Virus record (IMG/VR): IMGVR_UViG_3300027836_000007
Coordinates: 1 to 64,000 of that record
DNA from: a virus
DNA: 64,000 bases
Direction: 5' to 3' (one strand)
Shown: in pieces, positions 1 through 61,145 of the stretch
Layout: each line of letters starts with the position of its first letter
Numbering within the stretch: position 1 is the stretch's first letter
Program-made: the position numbers and the translations under genes
The notes under the pieces: generated by a model
Database searches by the model: none
What the model was told of the DNA's origin: nothing
Seen by the model: only the letters and a program-made list of their open reading frames with translations

Positions 1-1273
1 CATAGCGCCTCTTCGTGACTATCATAGCGTTTGCGTCCACTTGATGCGGCATTAGCATAGTGTGGCATAGCTAGTATCGCTTTAAATGATGTGTGTAATT
101 GTGTAGTCATAGCAGTAATTATAGCAGGTTTTGAGCTAATGTCAACCTCACTATATACCAATAGCCGCGAAGCGGTAGCGCGAAAAAAATTTTGAGCATC
201 GGAAGTCTATAGCTCAGTCCCAGTTCATTCCATTCACTGGTTAGCCATTCGTTTGCCAAGACACACGTCTCGCCAAACTCTGGGTATTGATATTAACTTA
301 TAGTGTTAAGGACCAAATGACACCAATGACTATGCCCAAGCCAAATGCCAAGATACAAAGCCCGATGACAACAGCTGAATACACAACCGTATCCTCTACT
401 ATGAATTCAACCTGTTCACGAGTAATCACAGTATCAAGTCCTTTTTATATACATGTACCATTAATGGATCTATGAGTAAAGCCAATGACAGTCTATCCTC
501 ACGTATATAGAACTCAGCATATGGCTCAACACTTACAGCTGATACATACTCAGCACATAACCATAGTTGCTCTTGTACTGAATACTCAGCTGATGTACGA
601 TAACAATATAAACGCATATGACATAGACCCCGCTGCAAGGAAGAAGCTTGCGCTTCCTCTCCGTGTATACAGTATATAGCTTATGACTACTGCTTGTATC
701 CACAATGGAAGCTAGAGTTTATATAGTGCTATGACAGTGTACACAGTTCAAAGCATCGTCGCTTGCGCGAGCTCTGCGGGCGGAACCTATATATGTATAA
801 CAGCTATAGTAGCATGTACACTGACAGTACTCAAATGGTTCGAGCTAATAAGATTGTTATTGGGCACCATAGCGCAGGGTGTAGAGGCGGTTATAGTAAA
901 GACCCCGCTGCACGCACCAGCATATACTAGGGTAGAACTACAGTAACACAGGAGACCCCGCTGCACATGTGCGTAGGGAGGGCGGATTTGGGGCATTAGA
1001 GTAACCATTTTAACTATGCCAGTCTCGACCTCACGGTTCTGAAAAATTTTCTACCATGCCTAGCCCCACCATGGCCCGATTATGAGTCATTATCCAGAAT
1101 CCATCACACTTTATCACACAATTCAACACTTTTAGACACTTTTGTCAACTCTGCCCCTCTGTATATGACTCTATGCGCAAGGTGGGGTGATCTAGTTCAC
1201 ACATTCTTGCATGCATATAGTACGGACCTAATCCTATTAACCTATATAAGGAGCCCGAACCGTTAAATACTGT
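1..1273. other. Region without a recognisable gene
   Basis: Only short frames rich in unlikely residues are open here on either strand, and none has a ribosome binding site. The stretch holds many TATATAG-like runs, a small CCGC-GAA-GCGG hairpin at 165-175 and three copies of the 12-mer GACCCCGCTGCA (626-637, 901-912, 954-965). It could be regulatory or a decayed region; nothing more can be supported. Confidence 0.5.
626..965 (+). repeat. Three dispersed copies of GACCCCGCTGCA
   Basis: The identical 12-mer occurs at 626-637, 901-912 and 954-965, all in the same orientation, within otherwise AT-rich sequence. Seen directly; function unknown. Confidence 0.5.
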
Positions 1274-1465
1274 ATGACCTTTACTACTATAGCTAATGTA
1301 TATGTACGTGACAGACAGTATAATGTTCATGTCAGCATTAATGATCTTACTCGTGCTATACATATATTCAAGTATGATGAACGCCATACTATATGTGAAT
1401 ATGAACTGTTCAATAATCATTTTGATGCCGCGGATTATTTAGAATTATTGCTGAAAGGTAAGTAG
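1274..1465 (+). CDS. Hypothetical 63-aa protein
   Basis: An ATG frame of 63 codons rich in charged and aromatic residues, ending LELLLKGK. An AAGGAG sequence lies at 1248-1253, about 20 bases before the ATG, which is farther than usual. No promoter of the TTGACA type seen before the other early genes is visible. No family is recognised. It is the only credible frame in the first 1.7 kb, but remains uncertain. Confidence 0.4.
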   Translation: MTFTTIANVYVRDRQYNVHVSINDLTRAIHIFKYDERHTICEYELFNNHFDAADYLELLLKGK

Positions 1466-1523
1466 AGGGTTCGAACCAAAGTAAATGCTAGAATTCGGGG
1501 CCGAGACCTTCAGCCCAAATCCG

Positions 1524-1559
1524 TTTTGTCAACCGGATTTCTATAACCCTTTTGTCAAC
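1524..1559. repeat. TTTTGTCAAC repeats
   Basis: TTTTGTCAAC occurs at 1524-1533 and 1550-1559, and once more at 1140-1149. Read on the minus strand each contains TTGACA, the -35 sequence used throughout this phage, but no TATAAT lies 16-18 bases away on that strand. The first copy is the loop of an AAATCCG/CGGATTT hairpin. They may be degenerate promoters facing left. Confidence 0.35.
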
Positions 1560-1747
1560 CAGGTCGTTGTTTTCGCGCCACAGTTAGTTGGCGCTTACTA
1601 ACATAGAACCCGACGCCCACCCTCGCCGTCCATCCCCTTAAGCAGTTCGAACACTCTTTGTCTTTCTATGCTGCAATTATAACGCATTTTGGGCATTCTG
1701 TCAAATCCTCTAGAGAGACCCTGCCGATCGTGTGGGTATTATTTTGG

Positions 1748-1776
1748 TTGACTGCCCCTGCTCAAAGTGCTATAAT
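1748..1776 (+). promoter_or_regulatory. Early promoter TTGACT-N17-TATAAT
   Basis: The -35 is TTGACT (1748-1753) and the -10 is TATAAT (1771-1776). The expected start of transcription coincides with the ATG at 1783, so the message is predicted to be leaderless. Confidence 0.85.
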
Positions 1777-1782
1777 TATGAC

Positions 1783-2109
1783 ATGGAAAAGAAAAAGCGA
1801 ACTGCACGTTCAGACTCAAACTATATCATATATGCCGCTACCCATAATGGGCAGAGCTATATTGGACTGACCCGCAAAGGTACAGTCAGCATAGCCAAAG
1901 CCGTTAAGGAACGCTGGCGCAAGCATATATCACGTGCAAAGCACGAGGATAGGGCTTGGGTCTTGTATCAGTATATCAAAGGCGGAGCATGGACTGACTG
2001 GGAGCATACAGTCATAGACGTGATTAGAGGGCGAGCTGAAGCTTATGCATACGAGCGTGAGCTGGTCAAGCAGATGCAGCCCGAACTGAACGATCAATAC
2101 ATCGGTTGA
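1783..2109 (+). CDS. Small GIY-YIG nuclease-domain protein
   Basis: A 108-residue protein that is essentially one GIY-YIG domain: IIY at residues 15-17, YIG at 26-28, an arginine-rich helix with KERWRKH (42-48), and a C-terminal AYERELVKQMQPELN with the likely metal-binding Glu at about 92 and the Asn at 103. This family cleaves DNA and in phages occurs as free-standing homing-type nucleases or repair-like enzymes; no separate DNA-binding domain is present here. The frame is open upstream to a GTG at 1732, but the promoter lies inside that extension, so the ATG at 1783, exactly six bases after the -10 box, is the likely start. Confidence 0.8.
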   Translation: MEKKKRTARSDSNYIIYAATHNGQSYIGLTRKGTVSIAKAVKERWRKHISRAKHEDRAWVLYQYIKGGAWTDWEHTVIDVIRGRAEAYAYERELVKQMQPELNDQYIG

Positions 2110-2134
2110 CGCTTTCCCCAAAAGGCGTTATAAT
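2106..2134 (+). promoter_or_regulatory. Early promoter TTGACG-N17-TATAAT
   Basis: TTGACG at 2106-2111 overlaps the stop region of the preceding gene; TATAAT at 2129-2134. It is followed by an A/C-rich leader ending in AGGAGCGA before the GP88 gene. The spacer contains CCCCAAAAGG, a sequence shared with several other spacers. Confidence 0.95.
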
Positions 2135-2165
2135 AAACACTTAAACACACACAGGAGCGAACTGT

Positions 2166-2882
2166 ATGACTTTTAAACTTCTTAGCACCGCTAATCCCAA
2201 AATCCAAAAGGGTACCAAGCTGGGCTACTTGTCCTTCATCCTACACTTGGCACCAGCTGACTTGAGCGGGCGCAATACCTGCCCTAAGGCAACGGCTGGT
2301 TGTAAGGCAGCTTGCCTCAACACTGCAGGACGCGGTGGTATGTTCAAAAAGGGCGAGAACACTAACATGATCCAAAAGGCTCGCATTCGTAAGACTCAGT
2401 ACTTCTACGAAGCCCGTGACTACTTTATGGCTGACTTATATGCTGACATCCAAAAGGGCATCAAGCTGGCTACCAAGTTGGGCCTTACTCCAGTGTTTCG
2501 TTTGAACGGCACTAGTGACTTGAGCTGGGAGAAGTACACCATCAACGACAAGAACTTGTTTGAATTGTTCCCTACAGTACAGTTCTATGATTATACAAAG
2601 GTTCTGGGTCGTAAGGTATCACAGTACAAGAACTATTTCCTAATCTTCAGCAAGGCTGATGGCAATGACAGCGATGTTGCAGAAGCTATCCTACAAGGTA
2701 TGAATGTAGCCGCTGTCTTTGATGCGGTGCCTGAAGAGCATATGGGCCGTCCTGTTATTAATGCTGACGAGCACGATTTGCGCTTCTTAGATGCTAAGGG
2801 CGTGATTGCTGGACTTAAGGCCAAAGGCCGTGCTAAGAAGGACTACAGTGGATTCGTAATCCGTTTGACAGAAGTGGCTTAA
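2166..2882 (+). CDS. GP88-family phage protein
   Basis: A 238-residue protein that I recognise as the phage gene-product-88 family, known from many tailed phages and of unknown biochemical function. The N-terminal LLSTANPKIQKG and the cysteine-containing segment CPKATAGCKAACLNTAGRG (about 38-56) are typical. The rest is an alpha/beta-looking domain with conserved RLNGTSDLSWE (about 112-122) and a C-terminal RAKKDYSGFVIRL. The cysteines could bind a metal; this is inference. It has its own promoter and a good AGGAGCGA ribosome site, as expected of an early gene. Confidence 0.85.
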   Translation: MTFKLLSTANPKIQKGTKLGYLSFILHLAPADLSGRNTCPKATAGCKAACLNTAGRGGMFKKGENTNMIQKARIRKTQYFYEARDYFMADLYADIQKGIKLATKLGLTPVFRLNGTSDLSWEKYTINDKNLFELFPTVQFYDYTKVLGRKVSQYKNYFLIFSKADGNDSDVAEAILQGMNVAAVFDAVPEEHMGRPVINADEHDLRFLDAKGVIAGLKAKGRAKKDYSGFVIRLTEVA

Positions 2883-2893
2883 GGCTTTATAAT
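2865..2893 (+). promoter_or_regulatory. Early promoter TTGACA-N17-TATAAT
   Basis: TTGACA (2865-2870) lies inside the last codons of the GP88 gene and TATAAT is at 2888-2893. It drives the two following small genes. Confidence 0.9.
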
Positions 2894-2926
2894 ACTAACA
2901 TCAACACACAATAAGGAGCGAAACTT

Positions 2927-3190
2927 ATGTATACGGTAATTGTTTTCAAAGCAGACAAGCGCAAGAAGACAGGTGAGCGCGAAGTACTGTACAAGGACTA
3001 TGACACTGACAATAAGTCAATGCTGGAGCATACAGTCAAGAACACCTGGCGAAGCTCACAGGGCTTCCGTTATGAGATACACCAGACTATGGTAGAGCGT
3101 ACTAACATGATGGGTGGCGGCAAGTATCAGGAACGCTTTGATACTCCTAACTATTGCTCACCCTCTTCTGAATCTTATTGGAGTATGTAA
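2927..3190 (+). CDS. Hypothetical 87-aa early protein
   Basis: Begins MYTVIVFKADKRKK after an AAGGAGCGA ribosome site. Highly charged with no membrane segment or known motif; the C-terminal third is rich in Ser, Tyr and Pro. The stop codon overlaps the ATG of the next gene (TAATG), so the two are translationally coupled. I do not recognise the family. Confidence 0.75.
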   Translation: MYTVIVFKADKRKKTGEREVLYKDYDTDNKSMLEHTVKNTWRSSQGFRYEIHQTMVERTNMMGGGKYQERFDTPNYCSPSSESYWSM

Positions 3191-3399
3191 TGGCACAAGT
3201 AGACGGACAGACAGTTAAAATTGGTGACTGGGTTTGCTTTAAAGCTGACATAGAGCAGTCAGGCAAGATCGTGGACATTAAGAAGAGCTACATGGGCCAC
3301 AGTCTTGTGCTAGAGAACGAGAATGGGTTCCATGGTGACTACATTGGTGGGCAAACAATAACCACAGAGCTAGCCAGTGATTGTTGGATTGAAGGTTGA
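3190..3399 (+). CDS. Hypothetical 69-aa early protein
   Basis: The start at 3190 overlaps the previous stop as TAATG; an earlier in-frame ATG at 3178 is inside the preceding gene and less likely. The sequence alternates short beta-like segments (VKIGDWVCFKADIE, SGKIVDIKKS), suggesting a small SH3- or KOW-like barrel. Function unknown. Confidence 0.75.
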   Translation: MAQVDGQTVKIGDWVCFKADIEQSGKIVDIKKSYMGHSLVLENENGFHGDYIGGQTITTELASDCWIEG

Positions 3400-3424
3400 C
3401 GCTCTGCTCAAAAGGCAGTATAAT
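3396..3424 (+). promoter_or_regulatory. Early promoter TTGACG-N17-TATAAT
   Basis: TTGACG 3396-3401 and TATAAT 3419-3424. Spacer and leader are nearly the same as at 2106-2160. Confidence 0.95.
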
Positions 3425-3452
3425 AAACACTTAAACACACACAGGAGCAGAC

Positions 3453-3743
3453 ATGTTAACCATACAAGACGTCAACAAGGCAATCATGCTACAGACTTGG
3501 ACCAACACAGAGCTCAGCTCTATGATTGATGCTGTCAAGTGGAACAGAGAGCAACTGAGCAAGCGCATCAAACGTTCGATCGGTGTAGGCGACAATGTGG
3601 AGTTCACTAGCTCTAAGACAGGGCGCTTGACCCGCGGCTTTGTCAAGAAGGTAGCCATTAAGTATGTCACAGTGGACACGGGCTCGGGCTTGTGGAGAGT
3701 TCCAGCTAACATGCTGACAGTGGTTGACAAAGAGCTGGCTTGA
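3453..3743 (+). CDS. Hypothetical 96-aa protein with a KOW/SH3-like C-terminal half
   Basis: The N-terminal half (1-45) is helical and ends in a basic stretch (LSKRIKRS). The second half, VGDNVEFTSSKTGRLTRG followed by two short strands, resembles a small KOW or SH3-like barrel of the type that binds nucleic acid or ribosomes; this is judged by eye only. Good AGGAGC ribosome site. The promoter for the downstream RNA lies inside its last codons. Confidence 0.7.
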   Translation: MLTIQDVNKAIMLQTWTNTELSSMIDAVKWNREQLSKRIKRSIGVGDNVEFTSSKTGRLTRGFVKKVAIKYVTVDTGSGLWRVPANMLTVVDKELA

Positions 3744-3752
3744 AGCTATAAT
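3724..3752 (+). promoter_or_regulatory. Promoter of the candidate non-coding RNA
   Basis: TTGACA 3724-3729 and TATAAT 3747-3752 with a 17-base spacer, identical in design to the promoters of the protein genes. No reading frame with a ribosome site follows it for 450 bases. Confidence 0.85.
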
Positions 3753-3758
3753 TGAGTT

Positions 3759-4157
3759 AAGTTAGAAGATAAAGGCGATCCTCAAATGCAAGGACCCACG
3801 CGAAAGCAAAAAGGGTCGTAGCCAAAGGATACGAAGAGAGTTTGGAGACTCTGCCTCCCAAATTGAGGTTACCTAGACCACTAGGCGACTGGGATGATGA
3901 CAGTACCGACGGGCGCTGGTCAAGTCCAGGAGCATGAAGCAGGGGCAACCCGGAGTTGCGGTGGACAATCTAGGAGTAATGACCGTGCAGGCCTACGTGA
4001 GACGTTTGCGTAGGTAGAGACAGATGCACAATGGTTCCTCTCTACTATAAGGCATTCAGGTAGACCCTGATGTAAGTCCAATCCTATAGAGACTTTTATT
4101 ATAGCACGTTTTTGAGACCCTGTCAATACCCATGAGGCCGGCAGGGTCTTTTATTTT
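3759..4157 (+). ncRNA. Candidate structured non-coding RNA of about 400 nt
   Basis: This stretch starts where a transcript from the 3724-3752 promoter would begin and ends at a terminator, and has no credible plus-strand gene. It is dense in predicted helices: CCTCAA (3780-3785) with TTGAGG (3863-3868), enclosing GACCC/GGGTC and AGAGT/ACTCT hairpins; CCTAG-ACCA-CTAGG (about 3872-3885); GCAAC/GTTGC (about 3945-3959); CCTACG/CGTAGG (about 3992-4013); GTAGAGA/TCTCTAC (about 4014-4045); CAGG/CCTG with flanking pairs (about 4053-4072). A GCGAAAGC tetraloop helix sits at about 3800-3807. It is not tmRNA, RNase P or a group I intron as far as I can judge from their core motifs. Confidence 0.7.
4116..4157 (+). 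terminator. Terminator of the candidate RNA
   Basis: GACCCTG (4116-4122) pairs with CAGGGTC (4142-4148) and is followed directly by TTTTATTTT. The loop of 19 bases contains a shorter GGCCGG element. Confidence 0.75.
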
Positions 4158-4160
4158 GAG

Positions 4161-4189
4161 TTGACGTTTTGGACGATGTGCGCTATAAT
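4161..4189 (+). promoter_or_regulatory. Early promoter TTGACG-N17-TATAAT
   Basis: TTGACG 4161-4166, TATAAT 4184-4189, directly after the terminator. Drives the three-gene unit 4219-4868. Confidence 0.95.
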
Positions 4190-4218
4190 ACAAGCATACA
4201 CACTAAAAAGGATCCAAA

Positions 4219-4443
4219 ATGTTTACAAACTGTATTGCACGTGCTAAGTTAAACTACAACAAAAAATTAAAATGCTACAAACTGCTAGTTGCATTTGTTA
4301 ACGAAGGCGACAGCATTACACAACGCAACAGCGCATTTGTTAGCGGAGATTTGTGTGCAGATACTATTACAGCAGATTTGCAACGTGTATTGCTTACAGC
4401 AGAAAAAACACTGCGCACAAGTAACATTGTATTTGTAGAATAA
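4219..4443 (+). CDS. Hypothetical 74-aa early protein
   Basis: A basic N-terminal half (ARAKLNYNKKLKCYK) followed by a mixed segment; two cysteines at about 5 and 19 and one near 47. The ribosome site AAAGGATCC precedes the ATG. First gene of a small unit with the next two. No family recognised. Confidence 0.75.
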   Translation: MFTNCIARAKLNYNKKLKCYKLLVAFVNEGDSITQRNSAFVSGDLCADTITADLQRVLLTAEKTLRTSNIVFVE

Positions 4444-4457
4444 AAAAAGGAGCGTTA

Positions 4458-4679
4458 ATGAAAGTAAAAGTAATAAACATAGAGGACGGTGGCTTTTACA
4501 AAGACGCTTATGTTAGCGGCAACTGCGTAAAGGTTACACTGCAACGCGGCAAGGCGATTGCTAGTTGCGAACAAATACTTATTTGGGACGAGGAGTACGC
4601 TGAGGACTGCTTTGACGAATGGATGGACTGCGCACTAGCAGGTGAAGAGGGTTATACTTACACAGAAGGAGCGAACTAA
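4458..4679 (+). CDS. Hypothetical 73-aa acidic protein
   Basis: Follows the preceding gene by 14 bases with an AAAGGAGCG ribosome site. The N-terminal half looks like beta strands (KVKVINIEDGG, CVKVTLQRGKAIASC); the C-terminal half is strongly acidic. No known motif. Its stop codon abuts the next start. Confidence 0.75.
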   Translation: MKVKVINIEDGGFYKDAYVSGNCVKVTLQRGKAIASCEQILIWDEEYAEDCFDEWMDCALAGEEGYTYTEGAN

Positions 4680-4868
4680 ATGAGTAACATTAGCAAGGCA
4701 ATTAAACTACAAGAGGCAATTGACAAACTACACGAAGCGGATGCGCTGATGCAGGAAGCATTAGGGGCAAGCGAAGAGTGCTTTGACTTACATTGTGCGA
4801 TAGAAAGCGTTGCGGACGACATTGCGGAGTACGCAGAGCAACTAGTAGAGATGCAAATAACCGAGTAG
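4680..4868 (+). CDS. Hypothetical 62-aa helical acidic protein
   Basis: Predicted to be almost entirely alpha-helical with heptad-like leucine/isoleucine spacing (KAIKLQEAIDKLHEADALM). Ribosome site GAAGGAGCGAAC lies in the end of the previous gene. Possibly a small coiled-coil dimer; function unknown. Confidence 0.75.
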   Translation: MSNISKAIKLQEAIDKLHEADALMQEALGASEECFDLHCAIESVADDIAEYAEQLVEMQITE

Positions 4869-4892
4869 GCTGTAGGGTTATACATAGCGCAC

Positions 4893-4921
4893 TTGACATT
4901 TTGGACAGAGTGCGCTATAAT
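4893..4921 (+). promoter_or_regulatory. Early promoter TTGACA-N17-TATAAT
   Basis: TTGACA 4893-4898 and TATAAT 4916-4921. The spacer ATTTTGGACAGAGTGCGC closely matches that of the promoter at 4161, indicating duplication of the promoter segment. Confidence 0.95.
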
Positions 4922-4953
4922 AACAACATAGCAAATAAAGAAAGAGAGCGAAG

Positions 4954-5181
4954 ATGACAAAAGCACTAAACAAACGCATTAGCGAAGCATTTGGCAAAAT
5001 ATACGACATGGGAGACAGCGGGCTGGACTACATGGACAAGCATTGCGCATTAGACGAAGCGTTAATGGAATATTTTTACAATGACACTGTAGAGACACTT
5101 AGCAAAGCAGACAAAACAAAAATGGCTGACATGCTAGAGGAAATTGCTAGCGATGCGGAATTTGACTTAGAAGCGTTTTGA
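4954..5181 (+). CDS. Hypothetical 75-aa acidic protein
   Basis: Helical and acidic, with AFGKIYDMGDSGLDYMDKH near the N-terminus. Ribosome site GAGAGCGAAG. The next promoter is embedded in its last codons. Family not recognised. Confidence 0.7.
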   Translation: MTKALNKRISEAFGKIYDMGDSGLDYMDKHCALDEALMEYFYNDTVETLSKADKTKMADMLEEIASDAEFDLEAF

Positions 5182-5190
5182 GTGTATAAT
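5162..5190 (+). promoter_or_regulatory. Early promoter TTGACT-N17-TATAAT
   Basis: TTGACT 5162-5167 within the previous gene and TATAAT 5185-5190 just after its stop. Confidence 0.9.
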
Positions 5191-5215
5191 TAACACTTAG
5201 CAACAAAGGAAGTAG

Positions 5216-5377
5216 ATGACAACACGTGAACAAATTTTGGACTTGCTAGCACAGGTGGAGACACTGCTAGAGGAGACAACATGTGACGGCAGGCAACTAG
5301 CAGAGATGCAATGCTTTGAGGAAGTGACTACAGCGTTTAGCACACTAGTGCAAACGATTGACTACTACGTGGATTAA
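5216..5377 (+). CDS. Hypothetical 53-aa acidic protein
   Basis: A 53-codon frame, MTTREQILDLLAQVETLL followed by an acidic helical segment, ending TIDYYVD. It has its own promoter and an AAAGGAAG ribosome site six bases before the ATG. Both the promoter and the codon use support it despite its small size. The following promoter lies inside its 3' end. No family recognised. Confidence 0.7.
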   Translation: MTTREQILDLLAQVETLLEETTCDGRQLAEMQCFEEVTTAFSTLVQTIDYYVD

Positions 5378-5386
5378 TGTTATAAT
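5358..5386 (+). promoter_or_regulatory. Early promoter TTGACT-N17-TATAAT
   Basis: TTGACT 5358-5363 inside the preceding gene and TATAAT 5381-5386, followed by TTTAGGAGCG. Confidence 0.9.
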
Positions 5387-5405
5387 TGTTTTTTTAGGAG
5401 CGTGT

Positions 5406-5768
5406 ATGATTGCATTTAAAGACGTTGTGTGTAGCACAAACGGCAAGGGCTACTGGAGCGCAACTGCTAAGGCAGTTAACGTTACAGGGGCAACTGTTGC
5501 TTATGTTAATGACGAAGGCGACTTTGGAGAGTTGCGTGTGTACTTTAATAACTGGGACACAGACAAGCTGGGTCTGATTTACACAGACAAACAGTTTATG
5601 CGAGAGTTTAAGGCAGTACTTGCTACGAAGCTGGGCTTTACAGATAAACAGCTTAATAAACTTTGCTACAGCGAGCAGGGTATGCAGGGCGACAACTACG
5701 TGAGCATGGACATTTTGAGTGCAGACATTATTAATACACTTACAGAGATAGAGACGGTTAATGTTTAA
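5406..5768 (+). CDS. Hypothetical 120-aa early protein
   Basis: The start at 5406 follows AGGAGCGTGT; the frame is open farther upstream but that part lies across the promoter. The protein begins MIAFKDVVCSTNGKG and contains alternating strands with NNWDTDKLGLIYTDKQF in the middle and an acidic C-terminus. Similar short proteins are frequent in T4-like phages, but I cannot name a family. Overlaps the next gene by eight bases. Confidence 0.75.
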   Translation: MIAFKDVVCSTNGKGYWSATAKAVNVTGATVAYVNDEGDFGELRVYFNNWDTDKLGLIYTDKQFMREFKAVLATKLGFTDKQLNKLCYSEQGMQGDNYVSMDILSADIINTLTEIETVNV

Positions 5769-5985
5769 TAACATACTACAGTGGGCGGGCACTGTGTGCC
5801 TGCTTACAATGTACGTGCTAATGTCTTTCTTTCCACAGCTACACCCCTACAATATTGCGGCGGGTGTACTTGGGGGAGCATGTTACTTGGTGTGGACCCT
5901 GCGTGTGCGCAATAGACCACAGCTAATAGTTAACGCTGTAGCAATAACCATTGGGCTAGCAGGGTTATACAAAGCCTGGGGTTGA
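5761..5985 (+). CDS. Small membrane protein with three predicted transmembrane segments
   Basis: Of 74 residues about 60 are in three hydrophobic segments (roughly 5-24, 29-47, 54-72) separated by short loops, with VRNRPQ between the second and third. It has the layout of the CBU_0592-type small membrane proteins, but the match is by appearance only. The ATG overlaps the previous gene by eight bases, implying coupling. A role at the host inner membrane is inferred from hydrophobicity. Confidence 0.75.
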   Translation: MFNNILQWAGTVCLLTMYVLMSFFPQLHPYNIAAGVLGGACYLVWTLRVRNRPQLIVNAVAITIGLAGLYKAWG

Positions 5986-6010
5986 CAGTTTGAGCTAACC
6001 CTGCTATAAT
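5982..6010 (+). promoter_or_regulatory. Early promoter TTGACA-N17-TATAAT
   Basis: TTGACA 5982-5987 overlaps the stop of the previous gene; TATAAT 6005-6010. Confidence 0.95.
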
Positions 6011-6043
6011 ACTTACATACAAACAAACATTGGAGCGAACCAA

Positions 6044-6325
6044 ATGGACAAATACGAAATTGTGGAACTGTTTGAATCTAACTTTATGCGTAGCACAGAG
6101 GGCGAGACAGGTGTCCGCAACCTAGAGAATGTATGCGAGGTCCTGGGCTACGGCCAAGGCTTTATGCGTAACCGTGCCATTGAGGAGTTCCTTACAGACA
6201 ACCCGGGTGCTGTAGAAGGCCTGTTCCAGTTTATCAGCGAGTGGGCATTGCGCAACACAGATTGGCAAGCAGGTATGGAGGATGCGCTTGATGAAGAGGG
6301 CCTGCTTGACGAGGTTGACGCCTAA
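6044..6325 (+). CDS. Hypothetical 93-aa acidic protein
   Basis: Acidic throughout with a helical pattern and a C-terminal run of Asp and Glu. Ribosome site TTGGAGCGAACC. I recognise no motif; many small acidic phage early proteins act on host enzymes, which would be inference here. Confidence 0.75.
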   Translation: MDKYEIVELFESNFMRSTEGETGVRNLENVCEVLGYGQGFMRNRAIEEFLTDNPGAVEGLFQFISEWALRNTDWQAGMEDALDEEGLLDEVDA

Positions 6326-6343
6326 CCCAAAAGCTGTTATAAT
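6315..6343 (+). promoter_or_regulatory. Early promoter TTGACG-N17-TATAAT
   Basis: TTGACG 6315-6320 and TATAAT 6338-6343; the spacer carries ACCCAAAAG. Confidence 0.95.
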
Positions 6344-6376
6344 ACTTACATACAAACAAACATTGGAGCGAAAACA

Positions 6377-6625
6377 ATGCTAGTCAAAGAACTTATTGAA
6401 TCCCTCAAGTACATGGATCAGGACGCAGAGGTCCACTTTGCTTACAACTATGGCGACCACTGGCGCACAGAGGTAGCTCCAAAGGTTAGTCAAGTCACCG
6501 AAGGCGTTGTGGAGTACAGTGACTACCACCGCATGGACAAGCTGGTTACAGACGAAGAGGACTGCTACGACGAAGAAACGGGCGACTACAAGACGGATGT
6601 CCGCAAAGTAGTCGTCATCGGTTGA
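6377..6625 (+). CDS. Conserved phage-type hypothetical protein, 82 aa
   Basis: Opens MLVKELIESLKYMDQDAEVHF, a pattern (a helix followed by D-x-x-V-x-F) found in many small phage and bacterial proteins of unknown function. The tail is acidic and ends in a VRKVVVIG strand. Ribosome site TTGGAGCGAAAAC. Confidence 0.75.
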   Translation: MLVKELIESLKYMDQDAEVHFAYNYGDHWRTEVAPKVSQVTEGVVEYSDYHRMDKLVTDEEDCYDEETGDYKTDVRKVVVIG

Positions 6626-6650
6626 CGCTTTGTCCAAAAGACGTTATAAT
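6622..6650 (+). promoter_or_regulatory. Early promoter TTGACG-N17-TATAAT
   Basis: TTGACG 6622-6627 overlaps the previous stop; TATAAT 6645-6650; leader identical to those at 2135 and 3425. Confidence 0.95.
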
Positions 6651-6681
6651 AAACACTTAAACACACACAGGAGCGAAACAA

Positions 6682-7173
6682 ATGGGTACACGTTCAATGA
6701 TTGCTATTCAAAACCCGTATAGCAAAGACGTCCGCGCAGTCTACTGCCACTGGGACGGCTACTTGGAGCACAACGGCTCTATCCTCAACAAACACTATTC
6801 AGCAAGCTCTAAAGTCAACAACCTCGTAGCACTAGGCGACTTGTCCAGCTTGCGTCCTGAGATTGGCATTCAACACGCATTTAGTTCGTTGGACGTGCCC
6901 AAAGCGGAGCAAGAGGCATACGATAAAGAGCACGGCAACTCCTGTACATTTTACACACGCGACAGAGGCGAGGACGCTCCGTTCAAAGTGTTCCCTACGC
7001 TTAAAAAGGCAGAGAGCTACTTTGAAGGCAGCTGGTGCGAGTACTTGTATGTCTTCAAATACAAAAAGTCCGACGACTACCAAAGCGGCGAGTGGCACTT
7101 TAAAAAGATGGGTGAGCGTTGGAAGAAGCTTGCCCCAGCACTTGCTAAACTCAAAGCAGAGGACTGCGCATGA
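6682..7173 (+). CDS. Conserved hypothetical phage protein, 163 aa (MGTRS family)
   Basis: The N-terminal MGTRSMIAIQ, the YCHWDGYLEHNG segment at about 21-32 and the aromatic C-terminal part are shared by a widespread phage and bacterial protein family of unknown function. The conserved Tyr-Cys-His-Trp-Asp-Gly cluster looks like an active or binding site. Length is typical. It is the first of three overlapping genes. Confidence 0.85.
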   Translation: MGTRSMIAIQNPYSKDVRAVYCHWDGYLEHNGSILNKHYSASSKVNNLVALGDLSSLRPEIGIQHAFSSLDVPKAEQEAYDKEHGNSCTFYTRDRGEDAPFKVFPTLKKAESYFEGSWCEYLYVFKYKKSDDYQSGEWHFKKMGERWKKLAPALAKLKAEDCA

Positions 7174-7442
7174 CAGGGTTCCAATCAAAGAGGGCTTCGG
7201 CCCTTGATAAACTTACGGAGTACGGTATGAAGAAAGTGTACGTTGAGACTGTATTGATGCAAGAGCTTGAAGTTCCAGAGAACTGGGGGCGTGAAGATGT
7301 GTTTGACTTCCTTGCTGAGAACCAATCGTTCCGTACAGCGTTCCAAGGTGTAAGCAATGAGGACCAAACAGCCCGCATCCTCGATGTAGGCGTAATGATT
7401 GAAAAAGTAACCCAAATGGGAGAGGAGTGTTTTGATGAGTAA
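7170..7442 (+). CDS. Hypothetical 90-aa protein
   Basis: Starts in an ATGA overlap with the previous stop. Mostly helical, with a basic N-terminus and an acidic C-terminus. No known motif. Overlaps the next start by eight bases, so the three genes 6682-7614 form a coupled unit. Confidence 0.7.
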   Translation: MTGFQSKRASALDKLTEYGMKKVYVETVLMQELEVPENWGREDVFDFLAENQSFRTAFQGVSNEDQTARILDVGVMIEKVTQMGEECFDE

Positions 7443-7614
7443 GATGAAAGACTTGACGTACGATATTGAAGCTATGTTCATTGAGGGCGAGACTCCCAGT
7501 GAGATTGCTCTACAGCTGGATATCCCACTTAGCTTGGTTAAGAGCACACTAGAGTCATTTGGTGTGGACACTAGGGATATCGCAGAGGACTTTGGCGACT
7601 ATCAGGGCGCTTGA
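7435..7614 (+). CDS. Small helix-turn-helix-like protein, 59 aa
   Basis: The segment GETPSEIALQLDIPLSLVKS (about 18-37) has the spacing of a sigma-like or resolvase-like helix-turn-helix, with Ala at the first helix and Ile-Pro at the turn. DNA binding is therefore plausible. It overlaps the previous gene by eight bases. The start is ATG 7435; a TTG one codon earlier is less likely. Confidence 0.65.
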   Translation: MSKMKDLTYDIEAMFIEGETPSEIALQLDIPLSLVKSTLESFGVDTRDIAEDFGDYQGA

Positions 7615-7639
7615 CACTTTGAGCTTTTGGTTGTATAAT
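7611..7639 (+). promoter_or_regulatory. Early promoter TTGACA-N17-TATAAT
   Basis: TTGACA 7611-7616 overlaps the previous stop; TATAAT 7634-7639. Confidence 0.95.
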
Positions 7640-7664
7640 ACACTTATACAGACAGGAGCACACA

Positions 7665-7805
7665 GTGAAGATTACAATCAAAGTATCCAAAAAGCACAGA
7701 GAACACTTTGTTCTCTTTGCCCAAAACACTCCCTTCAAGCAGAAGGTAGTGGCCAGCAAGGTCAAATTTAAACGCAACCCTAAGCACAAAGGACGCGAAC
7801 AATGA
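7665..7805 (+). CDS. Small basic protein, 46 aa, GTG start
   Basis: A GTG-initiated frame 26 bases after the -10 box, with an AGGAGCACACA ribosome site. The sequence MKITIKVSKKHREHF continues with about one third Lys and Arg, so it is strongly basic and may bind nucleic acid. Its stop overlaps the next start as ATGA, which supports the reading. Confidence 0.65.
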   Translation: MKITIKVSKKHREHFVLFAQNTPFKQKVVASKVKFKRNPKHKGREQ

Positions 7806-8032
7806 AACTAGACGGACTTACAGAGCACCAAGTAGAGCTCCTGGACACCATGTGGTCCATCGACGAGTTCACAGATTTAGAGGCTTGGATGGAGACTCTA
7901 AGCAAAGAAGATAAGGCTGAAGCAGAACTCCTACAGCGCCTAGTGATCCTTGAAGAGTTTGAAGCCATGCTGGCCACTAGCAAATACCCTGAAGCCAACA
8001 TGGTTATTGATAAGTTTCGGTTGACGAAGTAG
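7802..8032 (+). CDS. Hypothetical 76-aa acidic helical protein
   Basis: Coupled to the preceding basic protein by an ATGA overlap. Predicted helical throughout with leucine-rich heptads. An acidic partner made with a basic one could indicate a complex; this is inference. The next promoter starts within its last codons. Confidence 0.7.
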   Translation: MKLDGLTEHQVELLDTMWSIDEFTDLEAWMETLSKEDKAEAELLQRLVILEEFEAMLATSKYPEANMVIDKFRLTK

Positions 8033-9824: not shown

Positions 9825-9903
9825 GGGCCTCTAGCTCATGCTTGGTTAGAGCAGTGGACTCATAATCCATTGGTGCGGAGTTCGACTCTCCGGGGGCCCA
9901 CCA
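9825..9903 (+). tRNA. tRNA with anticodon CAT (Met, or Ile if lysidine-modified)
   Basis: A full cloverleaf: acceptor GGGCCTC/GGGGCCC, D arm GCTC/GAGC, anticodon stem GTGGA/TCCAT with loop CTCATAA, T arm CGGAG/CTCCG with TTCGACT, and an encoded CCA (9901-9903). CAT can mean elongator Met or an Ile tRNA whose C34 is changed to lysidine; the sequence alone does not decide. Confidence 0.9.
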
Positions 9904-55267: not shown

Positions 55268-55958
55268 AATTGGTTACTGTCCTTGGTTTGAAAAAAATAA
55301 TCGAACTACAAATACTGCTCTTAACTATTATGGCTGGGCAGATTTGGCTTACTTTGATTTAGAACCGCTAGATACTTGGGAAAATTCAACAGCAAGGTAT
55401 CATCAGTGTCCTGCGTTTGTAAAATATGTAAAAAATACATTTGTATTAAGAAATACAGTAGATTTAGTATTGCACTGGGACAAATATAACCAAGTAGTAA
55501 GCACAAATTTACCCAAGGATGCGGCCGATGCGTTGGTAAGAACTCACTGGGGAGATTTTGATACTGACAAAGATCGCCCAATTGTTGCAATTAGTAATAG
55601 TTTTGTGTTTGTTGCAGATCAGCCAGTCTATGTCGAATTCTTACCTCCGTTTAATCATATTGATCATTCGTGGAGATTAATTCCCGGAATGTTTAATATC
55701 TTTTCGTGGCAACGGCCTGTAGTAACTACTATTGAAATGTTAACAGACGAAGTTATTCTAAAACGTGGTCAGCCCATGGCTTATATTAGATTTAGATCTG
55801 ACAACCCAAGTGATAAGTTTGTTTTGAAAAAAATAGAACGTACTGAACAACTAGAACATGCTGTAAACAGTTGTCTCACATTAAAACAATATATGCCAAA
55901 ATTAAGTTGGAAAATACATAACGCTATTAATAAGTTAAGGCCTAAAAAATGGCTGTGA
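55257..55958 (+). CDS. Halogenase-associated protein of unknown function A, 233 aa
   Basis: A beta-rich protein without known motif: YHQCPAFVKYVKNTF (48-62), VYVEFLPPFNHIDHSWRLIP (about 124-143) and LKRGQPMAYIRF (about 168-179). The protein at 61138-61899 shares its layout (QCPS, then a WCDIEI strand, W-x-MP, and IKMGEPLVKVIPF), so they are distant paralogues, and each touches a halogenase gene. A substrate-carrier or maturation role is possible but not shown. Confidence 0.75.
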   Translation: MTIKIGYCPWFEKNNRTTNTALNYYGWADLAYFDLEPLDTWENSTARYHQCPAFVKYVKNTFVLRNTVDLVLHWDKYNQVVSTNLPKDAADALVRTHWGDFDTDKDRPIVAISNSFVFVADQPVYVEFLPPFNHIDHSWRLIPGMFNIFSWQRPVVTTIEMLTDEVILKRGQPMAYIRFRSDNPSDKFVLKKIERTEQLEHAVNSCLTLKQYMPKLSWKIHNAINKLRPKKWL

Positions 55959-57418
55959 AGAAAGTAGCGATTCTAGGCGGGGGCACTTCTGGCTGGCTAA
56001 CAGCAATATTTTTTAAAAAAGTTTGGCCGGCACTAGAAATTACAGTAATTGAAGATCCAAAACATCCTCCAATTATAGCAGGAGAAAGTTGCACAGCACC
56101 CTTTGTCGACTTGTTAGATTTTTTAAATATTGACGTAAACGACTGGATTAAAAAAGTAGATGCTTTTCCTAAATTAGGGGGAAAGTTTGAAGGCTGGGGC
56201 CCCAATAATTCTGATTTTGTACAACCGTTATTTTCTTCTTATAAGAATCGGTGGGATTATAAAAATCCAGAGTTTGGCAAAGATAATGTTCTACTCAAAG
56301 GATTACTTGCTACAGGTTTACCCTTACATAAGATTACGGTGTCTGGTCATTTATTAGAAAATAATATAACACCTTTTACTTCTACCGGATTCGTAACTAG
56401 ACCAATGTATCATTTTGACAGCAGAAAAAATGCAGAATATTTTAAAAATATCGGCAAATCATTAAACATTAATCTAATTTTATCAAAATATCAGTCTTGT
56501 AAAATATCCGATAATGGAATTGAAAGTTTAACTTTAGAAGATCAAGAAGTTTGTGCAGATTTTTATATCGATTGTAGTGGATTTAATCAGTTGTTATTAA
56601 AAAAAGCATTAGGAGTTGAATTTAAAAATTTTTCTAAATATTTCCCAGCAACTAGTGTAATAGCTTGGTGGGACGAATCAGATTTAAAACCATATTCAAG
56701 AATGATTGCCATGGATTATGGCTGGCGATTTAATATAGACTTACGGTCTAGAAGTGGAAACGGTTATGTCTACGACGGGTCTTTAATTTCATCAGAACAA
56801 GCACAACAAGAAGTTGAAAGAAAACTTAATAAATCCGTTAATTTAGTTGCCAAAGCATCTTGGCAAGCTGAAATGGCTATTGAACCTTGGCAGAAAAATG
56901 TAATAGCAATAGGACTTAGTTCAGGATTTTTAGAACCGTTAGGATCAGGTGGTCATACTATGATTGCCTTGACTTTACAACTACTTTCAGAATTTTGGAA
57001 CCCAGAAAAAGAAACACACGGCCATGCAACTACGCTATTAAATTCTCGATATAAAGACATTGTTGATGATACTGTAGATTTTATTTCATTACACTATCGA
57101 AATAACAGAAGTGATACTGAATTTTGGAGGAAACATTTATCGGAAGAAACTGTTCCTCAATCGTTAAAACTAAAAATTGAACAACTTAAATCTGGAAACT
57201 TTTACGATATTGGGGTTGCATACTCTTTAGAAAATTATGCCGTAGTATTACAAGCATACGAGTTAATTGATAAATCATTGTTAGCTAATATTATTCGTTA
57301 CAAAAATGAAAAGTATTTAGATCAATGTATAGAAGAATATAACTTACTAAACAATCAAGCAAAACTAATAATCAAAGACTGTATTCCTACAACAGAATGG
57401 AAAAAATTATATGATTAA
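55949..57418 (+). CDS. Flavin-dependent halogenase homologue 1 (divergent site)
   Basis: 489 residues of the tryptophan halogenase family: FAD-binding GGGTSGW (10-16), GESCTAP (45-51), catalytic-type Lys75 in FPKLGGKF, DCSGF (208-212) and GLSSGFLEPL (322-331). Two features are altered: W-x-W-x-I-P is YGWRFNID here (Trp259, then Phe261 and Asp264), and the active-site Glu of PrnA/RebH (PLEST) is Gly332 in PLGSGG. It may therefore be a monooxygenase-like or non-halogenating flavoenzyme, or use a different mechanism. Overlaps both neighbours. Confidence 0.85.
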   Translation: MAVKKVAILGGGTSGWLTAIFFKKVWPALEITVIEDPKHPPIIAGESCTAPFVDLLDFLNIDVNDWIKKVDAFPKLGGKFEGWGPNNSDFVQPLFSSYKNRWDYKNPEFGKDNVLLKGLLATGLPLHKITVSGHLLENNITPFTSTGFVTRPMYHFDSRKNAEYFKNIGKSLNINLILSKYQSCKISDNGIESLTLEDQEVCADFYIDCSGFNQLLLKKALGVEFKNFSKYFPATSVIAWWDESDLKPYSRMIAMDYGWRFNIDLRSRSGNGYVYDGSLISSEQAQQEVERKLNKSVNLVAKASWQAEMAIEPWQKNVIAIGLSSGFLEPLGSGGHTMIALTLQLLSEFWNPEKETHGHATTLLNSRYKDIVDDTVDFISLHYRNNRSDTEFWRKHLSEETVPQSLKLKIEQLKSGNFYDIGVAYSLENYAVVLQAYELIDKSLLANIIRYKNEKYLDQCIEEYNLLNNQAKLIIKDCIPTTEWKKLYD

Positions 57419-58895
57419 CAATTTAATAATTCTCGGCGGCGGAACTAGTGGACTAGTTAACGCAATTATATTAAAGTCTATCTACCAAAAGCTCAACATT
57501 ACTATAGTAAAGTCCTCTGATGTTGGCATCATCGGCGTAGGTGAAGGTTCAACTGAACACTGGGCTCGTTTTATGCAAGTTGCAGGAATCTCCGTACACG
57601 AACTGTTAAAAGAAACAGATGCAACGTTTAAATCTGGTATAAAATTTATCAATTGGAATGGAGACGATGACTATTATTTCCATAGTGTTCACAGTCAATT
57701 TTTAACAGAAAGTTACAATGGTTCTAATAATATATATTTAAACATGATTGCAGGAGGAAAAACTCACCACGATATTATTCCTGATAACATTCATAAGTCA
57801 GTTCATTACGAACCTTTAGAAGGAACAGTCAATCAATTTCATTTCAATACCATGAAACTTAATGATTATCTCATTAAGCAATGTTTAGTTAGAGATATAA
57901 AAATTATTGACGATACAGTAGACGATGTTATTTTAGATGACACGGGCCATGTTTCAAAACTAATAGGCAAGTTAGGTGAATATTCGGCAGATTTTTTTAT
58001 TGATTGTAGCGGTTTTAAACGTGTTATATCTTCTAAATTAGGTGCAAAGTGGGTAGACTGTTCAGACTATCTACCAATGAATTCAGCATTTGCATTCCCT
58101 ACAGAAAAAATGGAAGATATTCCTTCACACACCCTTAGCACTGCAATGAGTTCAGGATGGATGTGGCGAATACCAACTAATGATAGATTTGGAAATGGTT
58201 ATGTATATTGTGATAAATTTATTACAGACGAACAAGCTATTGCAGAAGCACAATCTGTATTTCAAAAGCCTATCAACATTGCAAAGACATTTAAATTCAC
58301 TGCTGGATATGTAGATAAATTTTGGATTAAAAATTGTGTGGCTGTTGGGCTGGCTGGGAGTTTTGTTGAACCGTTAGAAGCCAGTAGTATAGGAACTTCT
58401 ATTCAACAGGCATTTGGCATCGCCAACTCTTTAATAAATTACGAGGACGGTGATCAATCATTGATTGACAAATACAATTATGATTTTGAAAGCGTGGCTA
58501 AAAATATTATTGATTTTGTTCAACTACATTATATAACTAAAAGAGAAGATTCTGCTTTTTGGAAAAATTGTAAAAATTTAAAATTAACTGAATTTAATCA
58601 ACAAACATTAGAGCATTTTAAAAAATACGGTCCTAATACAACTTTCTTTAGTAAGCCATATATGCTTTTTAGGGAAGTAAATTGGTTATTAGTCATGCAC
58701 GGCTTAAAAATGCTCGACATAGAAAGTATAAAGAATATGATGTCACAACAAAATGACGATATATTGTTTTCAACAAACGAACTTCAAAAAGATTTTAGTA
58801 AATTTGTTGAAAAACAAACTATGATTACTCATAGAGAATGTTTAGAAATTTTAAAATCTAGAAACTCCGTTCATGTTATCAGTATGGAACAGTGA
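57411..58895 (+). CDS. Flavin-dependent (tryptophan-type) halogenase 2
   Basis: 494 residues. GGGTSG (9-14), GVGEGS (42-47), Lys74 in TFKSGIKF, intact W-x-W-x-I-P as WMWRIP (250-255), DCSGF (198-202) and EPLEASSIG with Glu323. Such enzymes oxidise halide with reduced FAD and O2 and let hypohalous acid react, via the Lys, with an aromatic substrate. The free substrate pocket cannot be read from sequence. A halogenase (VirX1) has been studied from cyanophage Syn10, so phage-borne members are known. Confidence 0.9.
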   Translation: MINNLIILGGGTSGLVNAIILKSIYQKLNITIVKSSDVGIIGVGEGSTEHWARFMQVAGISVHELLKETDATFKSGIKFINWNGDDDYYFHSVHSQFLTESYNGSNNIYLNMIAGGKTHHDIIPDNIHKSVHYEPLEGTVNQFHFNTMKLNDYLIKQCLVRDIKIIDDTVDDVILDDTGHVSKLIGKLGEYSADFFIDCSGFKRVISSKLGAKWVDCSDYLPMNSAFAFPTEKMEDIPSHTLSTAMSSGWMWRIPTNDRFGNGYVYCDKFITDEQAIAEAQSVFQKPINIAKTFKFTAGYVDKFWIKNCVAVGLAGSFVEPLEASSIGTSIQQAFGIANSLINYEDGDQSLIDKYNYDFESVAKNIIDFVQLHYITKREDSAFWKNCKNLKLTEFNQQTLEHFKKYGPNTTFFSKPYMLFREVNWLLVMHGLKMLDIESIKNMMSQQNDDILFSTNELQKDFSKFVEKQTMITHRECLEILKSRNSVHVISMEQ

Positions 58896-59527
58896 TGGCT
58901 ATAGAGCAAAAGTCTTTTCCAAATTACGGGTATTCAATGTCAGTTTTGCCCGACGACGTGTTATGTATAATTAAAGAAGAAATTAATAATTTACAAACTA
59001 ACAGTAAAATTTATAAAAATCTAGCAGGGCATTTAGAATCGCAACATTATCTAACAGAATCTCGAAACACATTATCTCCAATTATTTTAGAAATGGCGGC
59101 TGAGTATCTGCTTTCTTGGAATTTTAAAAACGAAGTACTTAGAAATAATCCAAAGGCAGATGTTATCTCTTTTAAATTAGATGATATTTGGGTAAATTTA
59201 CAGAAAAAGACAGAGTATAATCCGTTACACGACCATTCTGGAGTTTTTAGTTTTGTTGCTTGGATCAACATACCCTACAATTTAGAAACAGAAATGAAAC
59301 TGCCGAATGTCGAATCTTCAAATAACCCGTTAGCAACAACTTTTAACTTTGTCTATACTAATGTGTTTGGAGAGATTATTGCCTTGCCATTTTTTGCTGA
59401 GAAAAAACACGAAGGAACTATCATTTTTTTCCCGGCAAAGTTAAAACATTTAGTTTATCCATTTTTAACTTCAGAAGAGCATAGAATAACTATTTCAGGA
59501 AACGTGTCCCTTAACACCGCTGTGTGA
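58895..59527 (+). CDS. 2OG-Fe(II) oxygenase 8
   Basis: 210 residues from ATG 58895 (TGATG overlap; a GTG three bases earlier is less likely). DDIWVNLQKKTEYNPLHDHS (97-116) supplies His112-x-His114, GVFSFVAWINIPY follows, and GTIIFFPAKLKHLVYPF (174-190) has His185, with Arg197 in HRITISGNVS. A slightly different subfamily, with an inserted loop of about 35 residues (136-170) between strands. Confidence 0.82.
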   Translation: MAIEQKSFPNYGYSMSVLPDDVLCIIKEEINNLQTNSKIYKNLAGHLESQHYLTESRNTLSPIILEMAAEYLLSWNFKNEVLRNNPKADVISFKLDDIWVNLQKKTEYNPLHDHSGVFSFVAWINIPYNLETEMKLPNVESSNNPLATTFNFVYTNVFGEIIALPFFAEKKHEGTIIFFPAKLKHLVYPFLTSEEHRITISGNVSLNTAV

Positions 59528-59544
59528 TAATTACATATATCACA
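59523..59544 (+). promoter_or_regulatory. Inverted repeat TGTGATA-N8-TATCACA before halogenase 3
   Basis: TGTGATA (59523-59529) and TATCACA (59538-59544) are perfect inverted copies, just upstream of the AGGAG ribosome site in the only gap of this gene block. It may be an operator or an RNA hairpin that tunes translation. Confidence 0.55.
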
Positions 59545-59555
59545 TTAGGAGACAT

Positions 59556-61145
59556 ATGAGTAACGTGAATAAAATAGTGATAGTCGGTGGTGGTAGTGCT
59601 GGTTGGATGAGCGCAGCCACTCTGATTAAACATTTTCCAAATAAAGAAATTTATGTTATAGAAAGCCCCAATGTTCCCACTGTCGGTGTTGGTGAAAGCA
59701 CTATTGGGCAAATAAACGAATGGCTGTACGATCTTGATATCAAGGATGATGACTGGATGAAACAATGTGATGCCAGTTATAAGATGAGCATCAAGTTTAC
59801 TAATTTCTATAAAGAAGATGCGGGTGCCTTTCACTATCCATTTGGTGTTCCAGTAGTTGAAGCCAAATTTTTTCCGTACGGAGTCAATGACTGGTATGTG
59901 AGGAAATCTGTTCATCCTGAGATACCGGTTTCTAATTTTGCGGACACATATTTCCCCGCAATGACATTAATTAATAAAAATAAAATTACCGACAATAAAA
60001 ACAATGAAATACCAGGCTGGAACTTTGATCGAGATGTGGCCTATCATTTTGATGCGGCAAAGTTCGGTGCTTGGCTGAGAGATTCGTATGCTGTTCCTAA
60101 AGGGGTAACACATATACCTGCTGAAGTAACATCTATACAAACAAACAGCGAAGGTGTTGAACATCTTGTATTAGATAATGGCGATAAAGTTACTGCTGAT
60201 TTATTTTTAGACTGCACAGGATTTAAATCTATTATTTTAGATAAGACGATGAAGGTTCCTTTTGAAAGTTATAGTGATTTACTACCCAATAACAGTGCAT
60301 GGGCTACACGTATCCCATTTCAAGATAAAGAAAAAGAATTAGAACCGTTTACTAACTGTACTGCTATAGGTAATGGTTGGGTTTGGAATATTCCGCTATG
60401 GAGTCGAATTGGAACTGGATATGTTTACAGTGACGAATATATTTCAGACCAAGATGCATTAGAAGAATTTAAAGAATATTTACAAAAAGAAAGAGAAGTG
60501 CCAATTCCAAAATCTGTCATTGACTCTTTAGAATTTAAAAATATTAAAATGCGTGTAGGAATACACAAAGAAATTTATCACAAAAATGTCTGTGGTATTG
60601 GGTTAGCTGCAGGGTTCATTGAACCATTAGAATCTAATGGTTTGTATACTGTTCACGAATTTTTATTAAAATTAGTTGCAATACTTAATAGAAATTCTGT
60701 AAGTCAATTTGATAAAACTGCCTTTAATGAAGGATGTAGAGGAGATTTTAGAGCTTTTGCTGAATTCGTAGCCTTACACTATGCTATGAGTCACAGGGAC
60801 CAAACTCCTTATTGGCAGGCTGTGCAACATCGTGTATTTCCAAAAACTATGCCGTTGGGCGTATATGCTACATCTGGAATTGACAGTATAATACATAGAA
60901 AGTTTGTAAGCCATTTATATGATATGGACATGGGCGGCACGTTGATGATAGCAACTGGCATGAACTTGTTTCCGTTTGACAGTAGTCTACTAAAAAGAAC
61001 GCTGTTTAGAAATTCTAATGCAGAATATCTGACCTACTTACAAGATGTTTGTTGGCATAAATGGGATGCTGACTTAGATCAAAGAAATGAATTTGCTGAT
61101 TCTGCTCCAACACTATATCAATATTTAAAAAGCAAATATGATTAA
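59556..61145 (+). CDS. Flavin-dependent (tryptophan-type) halogenase 3
   Basis: 529 residues with all signatures: GGGSAGW (11-17), GVGESTIG (44-51), Lys76 in SYKMSIKF, WVWNIP (275-280), DCTGF (219-223) and FIEPLESNG with Glu359. Closest of the three to classical tryptophan halogenases such as PrnA. It has its own strong ribosome site (TTAGGAGACAT) after a 28-base gap, unlike the coupled genes around it. Its 3' end overlaps the next gene by eight bases. Confidence 0.92.
   Translation: MSNVNKIVIVGGGSAGWMSAATLIKHFPNKEIYVIESPNVPTVGVGESTIGQINEWLYDLDIKDDDWMKQCDASYKMSIKFTNFYKEDAGAFHYPFGVPVVEAKFFPYGVNDWYVRKSVHPEIPVSNFADTYFPAMTLINKNKITDNKNNEIPGWNFDRDVAYHFDAAKFGAWLRDSYAVPKGVTHIPAEVTSIQTNSEGVEHLVLDNGDKVTADLFLDCTGFKSIILDKTMKVPFESYSDLLPNNSAWATRIPFQDKEKELEPFTNCTAIGNGWVWNIPLWSRIGTGYVYSDEYISDQDALEEFKEYLQKEREVPIPKSVIDSLEFKNIKMRVGIHKEIYHKNVCGIGLAAGFIEPLESNGLYTVHEFLLKLVAILNRNSVSQFDKTAFNEGCRGDFRAFAEFVALHYAMSHRDQTPYWQAVQHRVFPKTMPLGVYATSGIDSIIHRKFVSHLYDMDMGGTLMIATGMNLFPFDSSLLKRTLFRNSNAEYLTYLQDVCWHKWDADLDQRNEFADSAPTLYQYLKSKYD

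Follow-up and report, generated by a model that had tools for sequence, protein, structure and literature searches.

Comparative sequence analysis identifies at least two previously uncatalogued structured RNAs carried by large freshwater phages

The window analysed here, the first 64 kb (64,000 nucleotides) of a 106,812-bp virus record (IMG/VR IMGVR_UViG_3300027836_000007), was assigned from its tail sheath and terminase sequences to a T4-like myovirus lineage, the terminase sharing 53% identity with that of the Pseudomonas jumbo phage PA5oct. Also identified were three consecutive genes (55949-61145) matching a tryptophan halogenase-like phage family (phrog_2928), an unusual cargo for a phage. 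Within the early region, an RNA cassette is flanked on its left by a 96-aa gene (3453-3743) and on its right by the next early gene (promoter 4161-4189, ORF 4219). The cassette lies behind a plus-strand sigma70-type early promoter (TTGACA-17-TATAAT; 3724-3752) with a 12/12 consensus match and a 17-nt spacer, from which transcription would be expected to start near 3759, and is closed by a plus-strand intrinsic-terminator-like hairpin with a U-rich tail (4115-4157). The putative terminator comprises an 8-bp stem (4115-4122/4142-4149; AGACCCTG/CAGGGTCT) followed by TTTTATTTT; the hairpin scan lists its inner part only, the full stem being read from the sequence and present in the MFE fold. Between promoter and hairpin, the ORF list contains no credible reading frame over approximately 360 nt. 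A first-pass annotation had described this stretch (3759-4157) as gene-free and bracketed by a perfect early promoter and a terminator, all of which was borne out, as largely was its statement that the other early promoters drive protein genes: forward promoters with 12/12 or 11/12 matches in positions 1-8000 mostly lie just 5' of ORF starts. Folding of the plus strand yielded -125.9 kcal/mol, compared to -113.2 +/- 5.4 kcal/mol for shuffled sequences (z = -2.36; equalled by 2 of 100 shuffles), and the minus strand folded no better than its own shuffles (z = -0.83). A second perfect promoter (12/12), on the minus strand and overlapping the terminator (4098-4126), points in the antisense direction to the RNA elements described below.

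Homologues of the stretch were identified in IMG/VR phage contigs of up to 383 kb. These relatives, located through neighbouring genes, match the stretch in pieces, and their comparison resolves it into two independent, normally single-copy RNA modules, A and B, together with a small hairpin, C. On this comparative basis the stretch encodes two or more distinct structured RNAs, not catalogued before, that belong to large freshwater phages. The first-pass annotation was thus right as to structure and novelty, and mistaken in proposing a single RNA of about 400 nt. A and B stand side by side in the window, and of 80 distinct B sites about 20 have A close by. In L033 and L041 an ORF and a second promoter intervene between them, in L115 their order is reversed with 2 kb in between, and many genomes yielded just one of the two. 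Pattern matches placed B in 76 and A in 52 viral stretches, and among the records searched B was single-copy in 15 and A in nine; the distribution is patchy, with neither module in several large relatives. Element C (CAUUCAGG UAGAC CCUGAUG; plus strand, 4049-4083) is likewise separable, with 14 matches (8 distinct) in varied contexts, such as after a tRNA in L058.

RNA A (plus strand, 3773-3856) was defined from an alignment of 33 distinct sequences (A5; 92% alike) and the corresponding model, R2. Its fold comprises 27 pairs distributed over P1 (AGGC/GCCU), P2 (GAUCC/GGAU-A-C), P3 with a GAAA-capped hairpin, P4, and a pseudoknot formed between a CCAA strand and the P4 loop. Across the alignment 99% of cells are paired, and compensatory changes were observed in 7 pairs (51 cells); no compensatory pair survived an offset of the partners by one or two bases, and at most one survived an offset of three. 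Stem variation occurs mostly in step, with exchanges of A-U for G-C in P2, U-A for C-G and A-U for G-C in P3, and C-G for A-U in P4. The pseudoknot itself shows a C-G/U-A change as well as a U-G/G-U pair.

In nearly all copies having a promoter match, A begins 13-25 nt past the -10 box. Its downstream neighbour differs between copies and may be B, other noncoding DNA, a new promoter (13-14 nt away) or a ribosome-binding site, the latter 13-19 nt away and serving many unrelated small proteins. A ribosome-binding site lies 13-30 nt past the end of A in about 14 of its 41 distinct copies. Given this varied downstream content, A is not tied to any one gene, and since it is also present in one copy per genome, the comparison points more to an RNA gene served by a promoter of its own than to a one-gene switch or a general leader.

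RNA B (plus strand, 3866-4039) is predicted to form a three-way junction of 45 pairs, on the basis of covariation, model matches and a mutual-information scan. P1 (AGG/CCU; 3866-3868/4037-4039) leads into one arm consisting of P2 (CCUAC/GUAGG), P2b, and the branches P3-P4 and P5, the latter often ending in a GNRA loop, and a second arm, P6a-P6b-P6c, which terminates in AGAYGNN. The structure was drawn by hand on an alignment of 30 sequences (A3), in which 91% of cells are paired and 29 of the 45 pairs show compensatory changes (221 cells); its covariation score of 0.480 compares with 0.185 +/- 0.010 for shuffled alignments and 0.03-0.12 for slid partners. In the mutual-information scan of 74 distinct sequences, whose alignment was fitted to the model and is hence not fully independent of it, 13 of the proposed pairs rank top. 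Two further features are possible: an extension of P2 by an invariant UUA/UAA, and a contact between the P4 and P6c loops, which has modest support from A-U, C-G, G-C and G-U pairings in 85.6% of cells. G-U pairs assign the folded RNA to the plus strand.

The B model returned 97 matches in the loci examined, and B is single-copy in whole records that have it, including phages of 320-383 kb. Two tandem copies, each with its own AU-rich closing helix, were observed in L187 (98-509, minus strand). We also found a divergent subclass with a different 3' arm (L094:1435-1613, L011:9345-9485, L047 and L089), which scored low with the first model (36-39 bits) and is better found by a broader one, R3. 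A coding reading of B was rejected: its length varies out of frame, and over approximately 175 nt the median longest stop-free stretch in six frames is 51 codons. Translation across the stretch, named beforehand as evidence against an RNA, therefore finds no support, and the covariation looked for in homologues proved strong in both A and B.

These folds also bear on the closed multi-branch domain previously proposed for the stretch, in which CCTCAA (3780-3785) would pair with TTGAGG (3863-3868) and so join A to B. This helix is incorrect, since both of its halves have other covariation-supported partners, the MFE fold lacks it, and relatives do not keep it. Specifically, CC (3780-3781) pairs within P2 of A, where GAUCC (3777-3781) meets GGAU(A)C, and AGG (3866-3868) pairs with CCU (4037-4039) as P1 of B; in L054 the corresponding segments read CCTCAA..ATTAGGG and the pairing is lost.

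Examination of the surroundings of B revealed a boxA-like sequence 5' of the RNA at 19 of 80 distinct sites, often after a small hairpin, with near-variants at two more (TGTTCTTTAACAA in L145 and GTTCTTTAAGAA in L192). We take this sequence to resemble E. coli boxA. The strict motif, TGTTC[AT]TTAAA[AC]A, has only 15 occurrences on both strands of 5 Mb of loci; on reading the sequence, no boxA was found at the window copy of B. In phages bearing the boxA-like sequence, B heads a tRNA array or sits inside one. Complementary arms flanking B score at least 14 at 26 of 67 sites, compared to 4% of shuffles, and occur in at least three unrelated versions (CAGTTAGAAAAG/CTTTTCTAACTG, CTATATTAAAATGTATTAA/TTAGTATTTTTTAATATAG and CATTCATATGTAAATG/ACATATGAATG); the resulting leader/trailer helix is only short in the window copy, and some other copies lack a long one. 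Upstream of B, A was found at 20 sites, boxA at 18 and both at one, so that the two are nearly mutually exclusive, and a further 32 distinct B sites lie directly behind a promoter with neither. Some B copies end 24-45 nt ahead of a ribosome-binding site. The sigma70 promoters and the boxA-like leader together suggest that the host is probably a proteobacterium.

Several additional observations were made among the tRNA arrays. Of 13 arrays inspected, about 10 have tRNA-Asp(GTC) as the first tRNA gene after B (L148, L136, L154, L140, L170, L167, L180, L058, L108 and L115), including those of phages nearly devoid of other tRNAs, and in L144, L137 and L159 B is followed directly by a tRNA-like sequence whose anticodon loop carries GTC and whose D and T arms are odd, as judged by eye. 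A T-box-like role for B, in which a GAY (Asp codon) in the P6c loop would act beside tRNA-Asp, was considered and rejected: the loop is better explained by its pairing with the P4 loop, and the B copy of L171 has the same P6c loop where the next tRNA is Leu. A further uncatalogued hairpin RNA of approximately 64 nt, GAGAGYCACAUCGCCUGGACACUU..ACUAGGUCCUGCAACCGUGGCUCUC, was observed between tRNA-Asp and tRNA-Glu (L148:8718-8781, L154:5851-5914, L136:626-689 and others); its 27 matches (13 distinct) include stems that appear to vary in step, with no match in Rfam.

Searches of the window and 12 related loci against Rfam 15 returned only tRNAs at gathering scores, and relaxed E-values added chance-level matches far under those scores. 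No significant covariance-model match was obtained for GOLLD, ROOL, 6S, OLE, tmRNA, RNase P or introns, in agreement with the first-pass view that the core resembles neither tmRNA, RNase P RNA nor a self-splicing intron. ARAGORN detected no tRNA or tmRNA at the locus, and only two tRNAs in the 64-kb window, at 9825 and 9908. Neither a blastn search of INPHARED phage records nor two scans of 84,980 bacterial species genomes with a pattern restricted to the B core yielded a match. Isolates with related terminases (PA5oct, Phosso, Vibrio 2.275 and Serratia BF) carry neither B nor A, and the broader model R3 added no isolated phage to the B family. As candidate relatives of B, RNAs C and D of phage T4 were rejected: with filters off, model R1 reached at best 5.1 bits (E = 0.29) in the T4 cluster, within a tRNA, and R3 found nothing in the whole T4 genome. 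A search of open-access literature recovered no description of either RNA. Structured phage RNAs near tRNAs are thus a known kind, and families A and B are undescribed in the sources searched.

Taken together, we propose, with a probability of about 0.6, that A and B are two trans-acting stable phage RNAs cut from one early transcript. From what was observed, namely the folds, the strand, the usual single copy, the link to a promoter and, for B in relatives, the tRNA arrays and boxA-like sequences around it, we infer expression, processing and function as follows. The early promoter would drive a noncoding transcript carrying the stable RNA genes A and B and hairpin C, ended by the intrinsic terminator. 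Host RNases may then separate the modules, B being released by a cut at or beside its closing helix, as by RNase III at rRNA leader/trailer helices, and the boxA-like leader, where present, could by analogy recruit Nus factors. Each RNA would fold alone into a conserved, tertiary-looking shape and act in trans as a stable RNA, mature A and B possibly binding, early in infection, to the translation machinery or to a protein of host or phage origin. This proposal is favoured by the covariation, the plus-strand G-U pairs and the single copy of each module, by the independence of A from any one gene, and by the position of B at the heads of tRNA arrays with its boxA-like sequence and flanking arms. 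Against it, the ribosome-binding sites close behind some A and B copies would also fit cis-acting leaders, the closing helix of B is short in the window, and both modules are patchy among large relatives. A more specific and quite doubtful version would make B an RNA machine produced by a miniature rRNA-like operon, as a ribozyme or as the core of a ribonucleoprotein particle acting on host translation or tRNA maturation, and A a second, pseudoknotted effector of the same take-over programme.

The main rival, which we consider rather unlikely, casts A as a cis-acting 5' leader (a put-like antiterminator, an mRNA stabiliser or a translation enhancer) and B as an RNA gene that it serves here. 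Such a leader would lie where A is found, at the transcript's 5' end with little variation in its spacing from the promoter, and ahead of coding and noncoding units alike, and the near mutual exclusion of A and boxA upstream of B looks as if the two were interchangeable. However, A is present in one copy per genome although early regions have many promoters, the genes downstream of it are unrelated, and the 32 promoter-adjacent B sites do without A or boxA. It is improbable that A, B or both are riboswitches for adjacent genes. Their compact conserved folds, invariant unpaired bases and, in some copies, position shortly before a ribosome-binding site would suit such a role, but no consistent gene lies downstream: A precedes B, other noncoding DNA, promoters or a variety of unrelated small ORFs, and B often precedes tRNAs or a fresh promoter. 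Nor was a conserved expression platform seen. Still less probable is a single 400-nt RNA of which A, B and C would be domains: the stretch in the window is framed by a single promoter and a single terminator and A and B adjoin at about a quarter of the distinct B sites (about 20 of 80), but the modules occur singly, apart and in other orders, and the joining helix is not conserved.

The minus-strand promoter (4126-4098), also kept in L041, forms with the promoter of the next gene a divergent pair (window 4098-4189), and a similar pair was observed in L086 (2080-2330). In the window its left half is directed into the RNA cassette and is either vestigial or would yield antisense RNA; in L086 a protein gene running leftward appears to be served by the left half, suggesting that the window copy is probably the remnant of a divergent promoter pair. 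That the functional product should be an antisense RNA from this perfect, L041-conserved promoter is hardly credible, as the promoter was not seen in most B-bearing relatives, its L086 equivalent appears to have a protein gene to serve, and the G-U pairs place the folded RNA on the plus strand.

The reading of A and B as trans-acting stable RNAs is of interest given that well-supported new families of structured phage RNA are scarce and that the functions of those described (GOLLD, ROOL, and T4 RNAs C and D) remain open. A and B are short, normally single-copy and located behind clear early promoters in huge freshwater phages, such that their function should be directly testable by covariation-guided mutants. 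If the boxA-like leader is confirmed, it would further indicate that a phage uses the host rRNA antitermination signal for its own operon of stable RNAs and tRNAs.

GOLLD and ROOL are RNAs of phages and prophages often found near tRNA islands (PMC12286853). They resemble A and B as structured, tRNA-adjacent noncoding phage RNAs of open function, and differ in size (more than 600-800 nt, compared to about 84 nt for A and 175 nt for B) and in that neither Rfam model matches. RNAs C and D of phage T4 (species 1 and 2) are small stable RNAs from a phage tRNA cluster, as B would be in the tRNA-array phages, but in this comparison, made for B only, the B models have no match in the T4 cluster or genome. 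The put sequences of phage HK022 encode structured antitermination RNAs near the 5' end of the early transcript, a position shared by A, which differs in being single-copy and pseudoknotted; the two are likened by description. The leader region of pre-16S rRNA is arranged as boxB, boxA and a leader/trailer helix (PMC10250234). Although the RNA enclosed here is not an rRNA and the window copy is without boxA, B in tRNA-array phages is set in a comparable succession of promoter, small hairpin, boxA-like sequence and leader/trailer helix.
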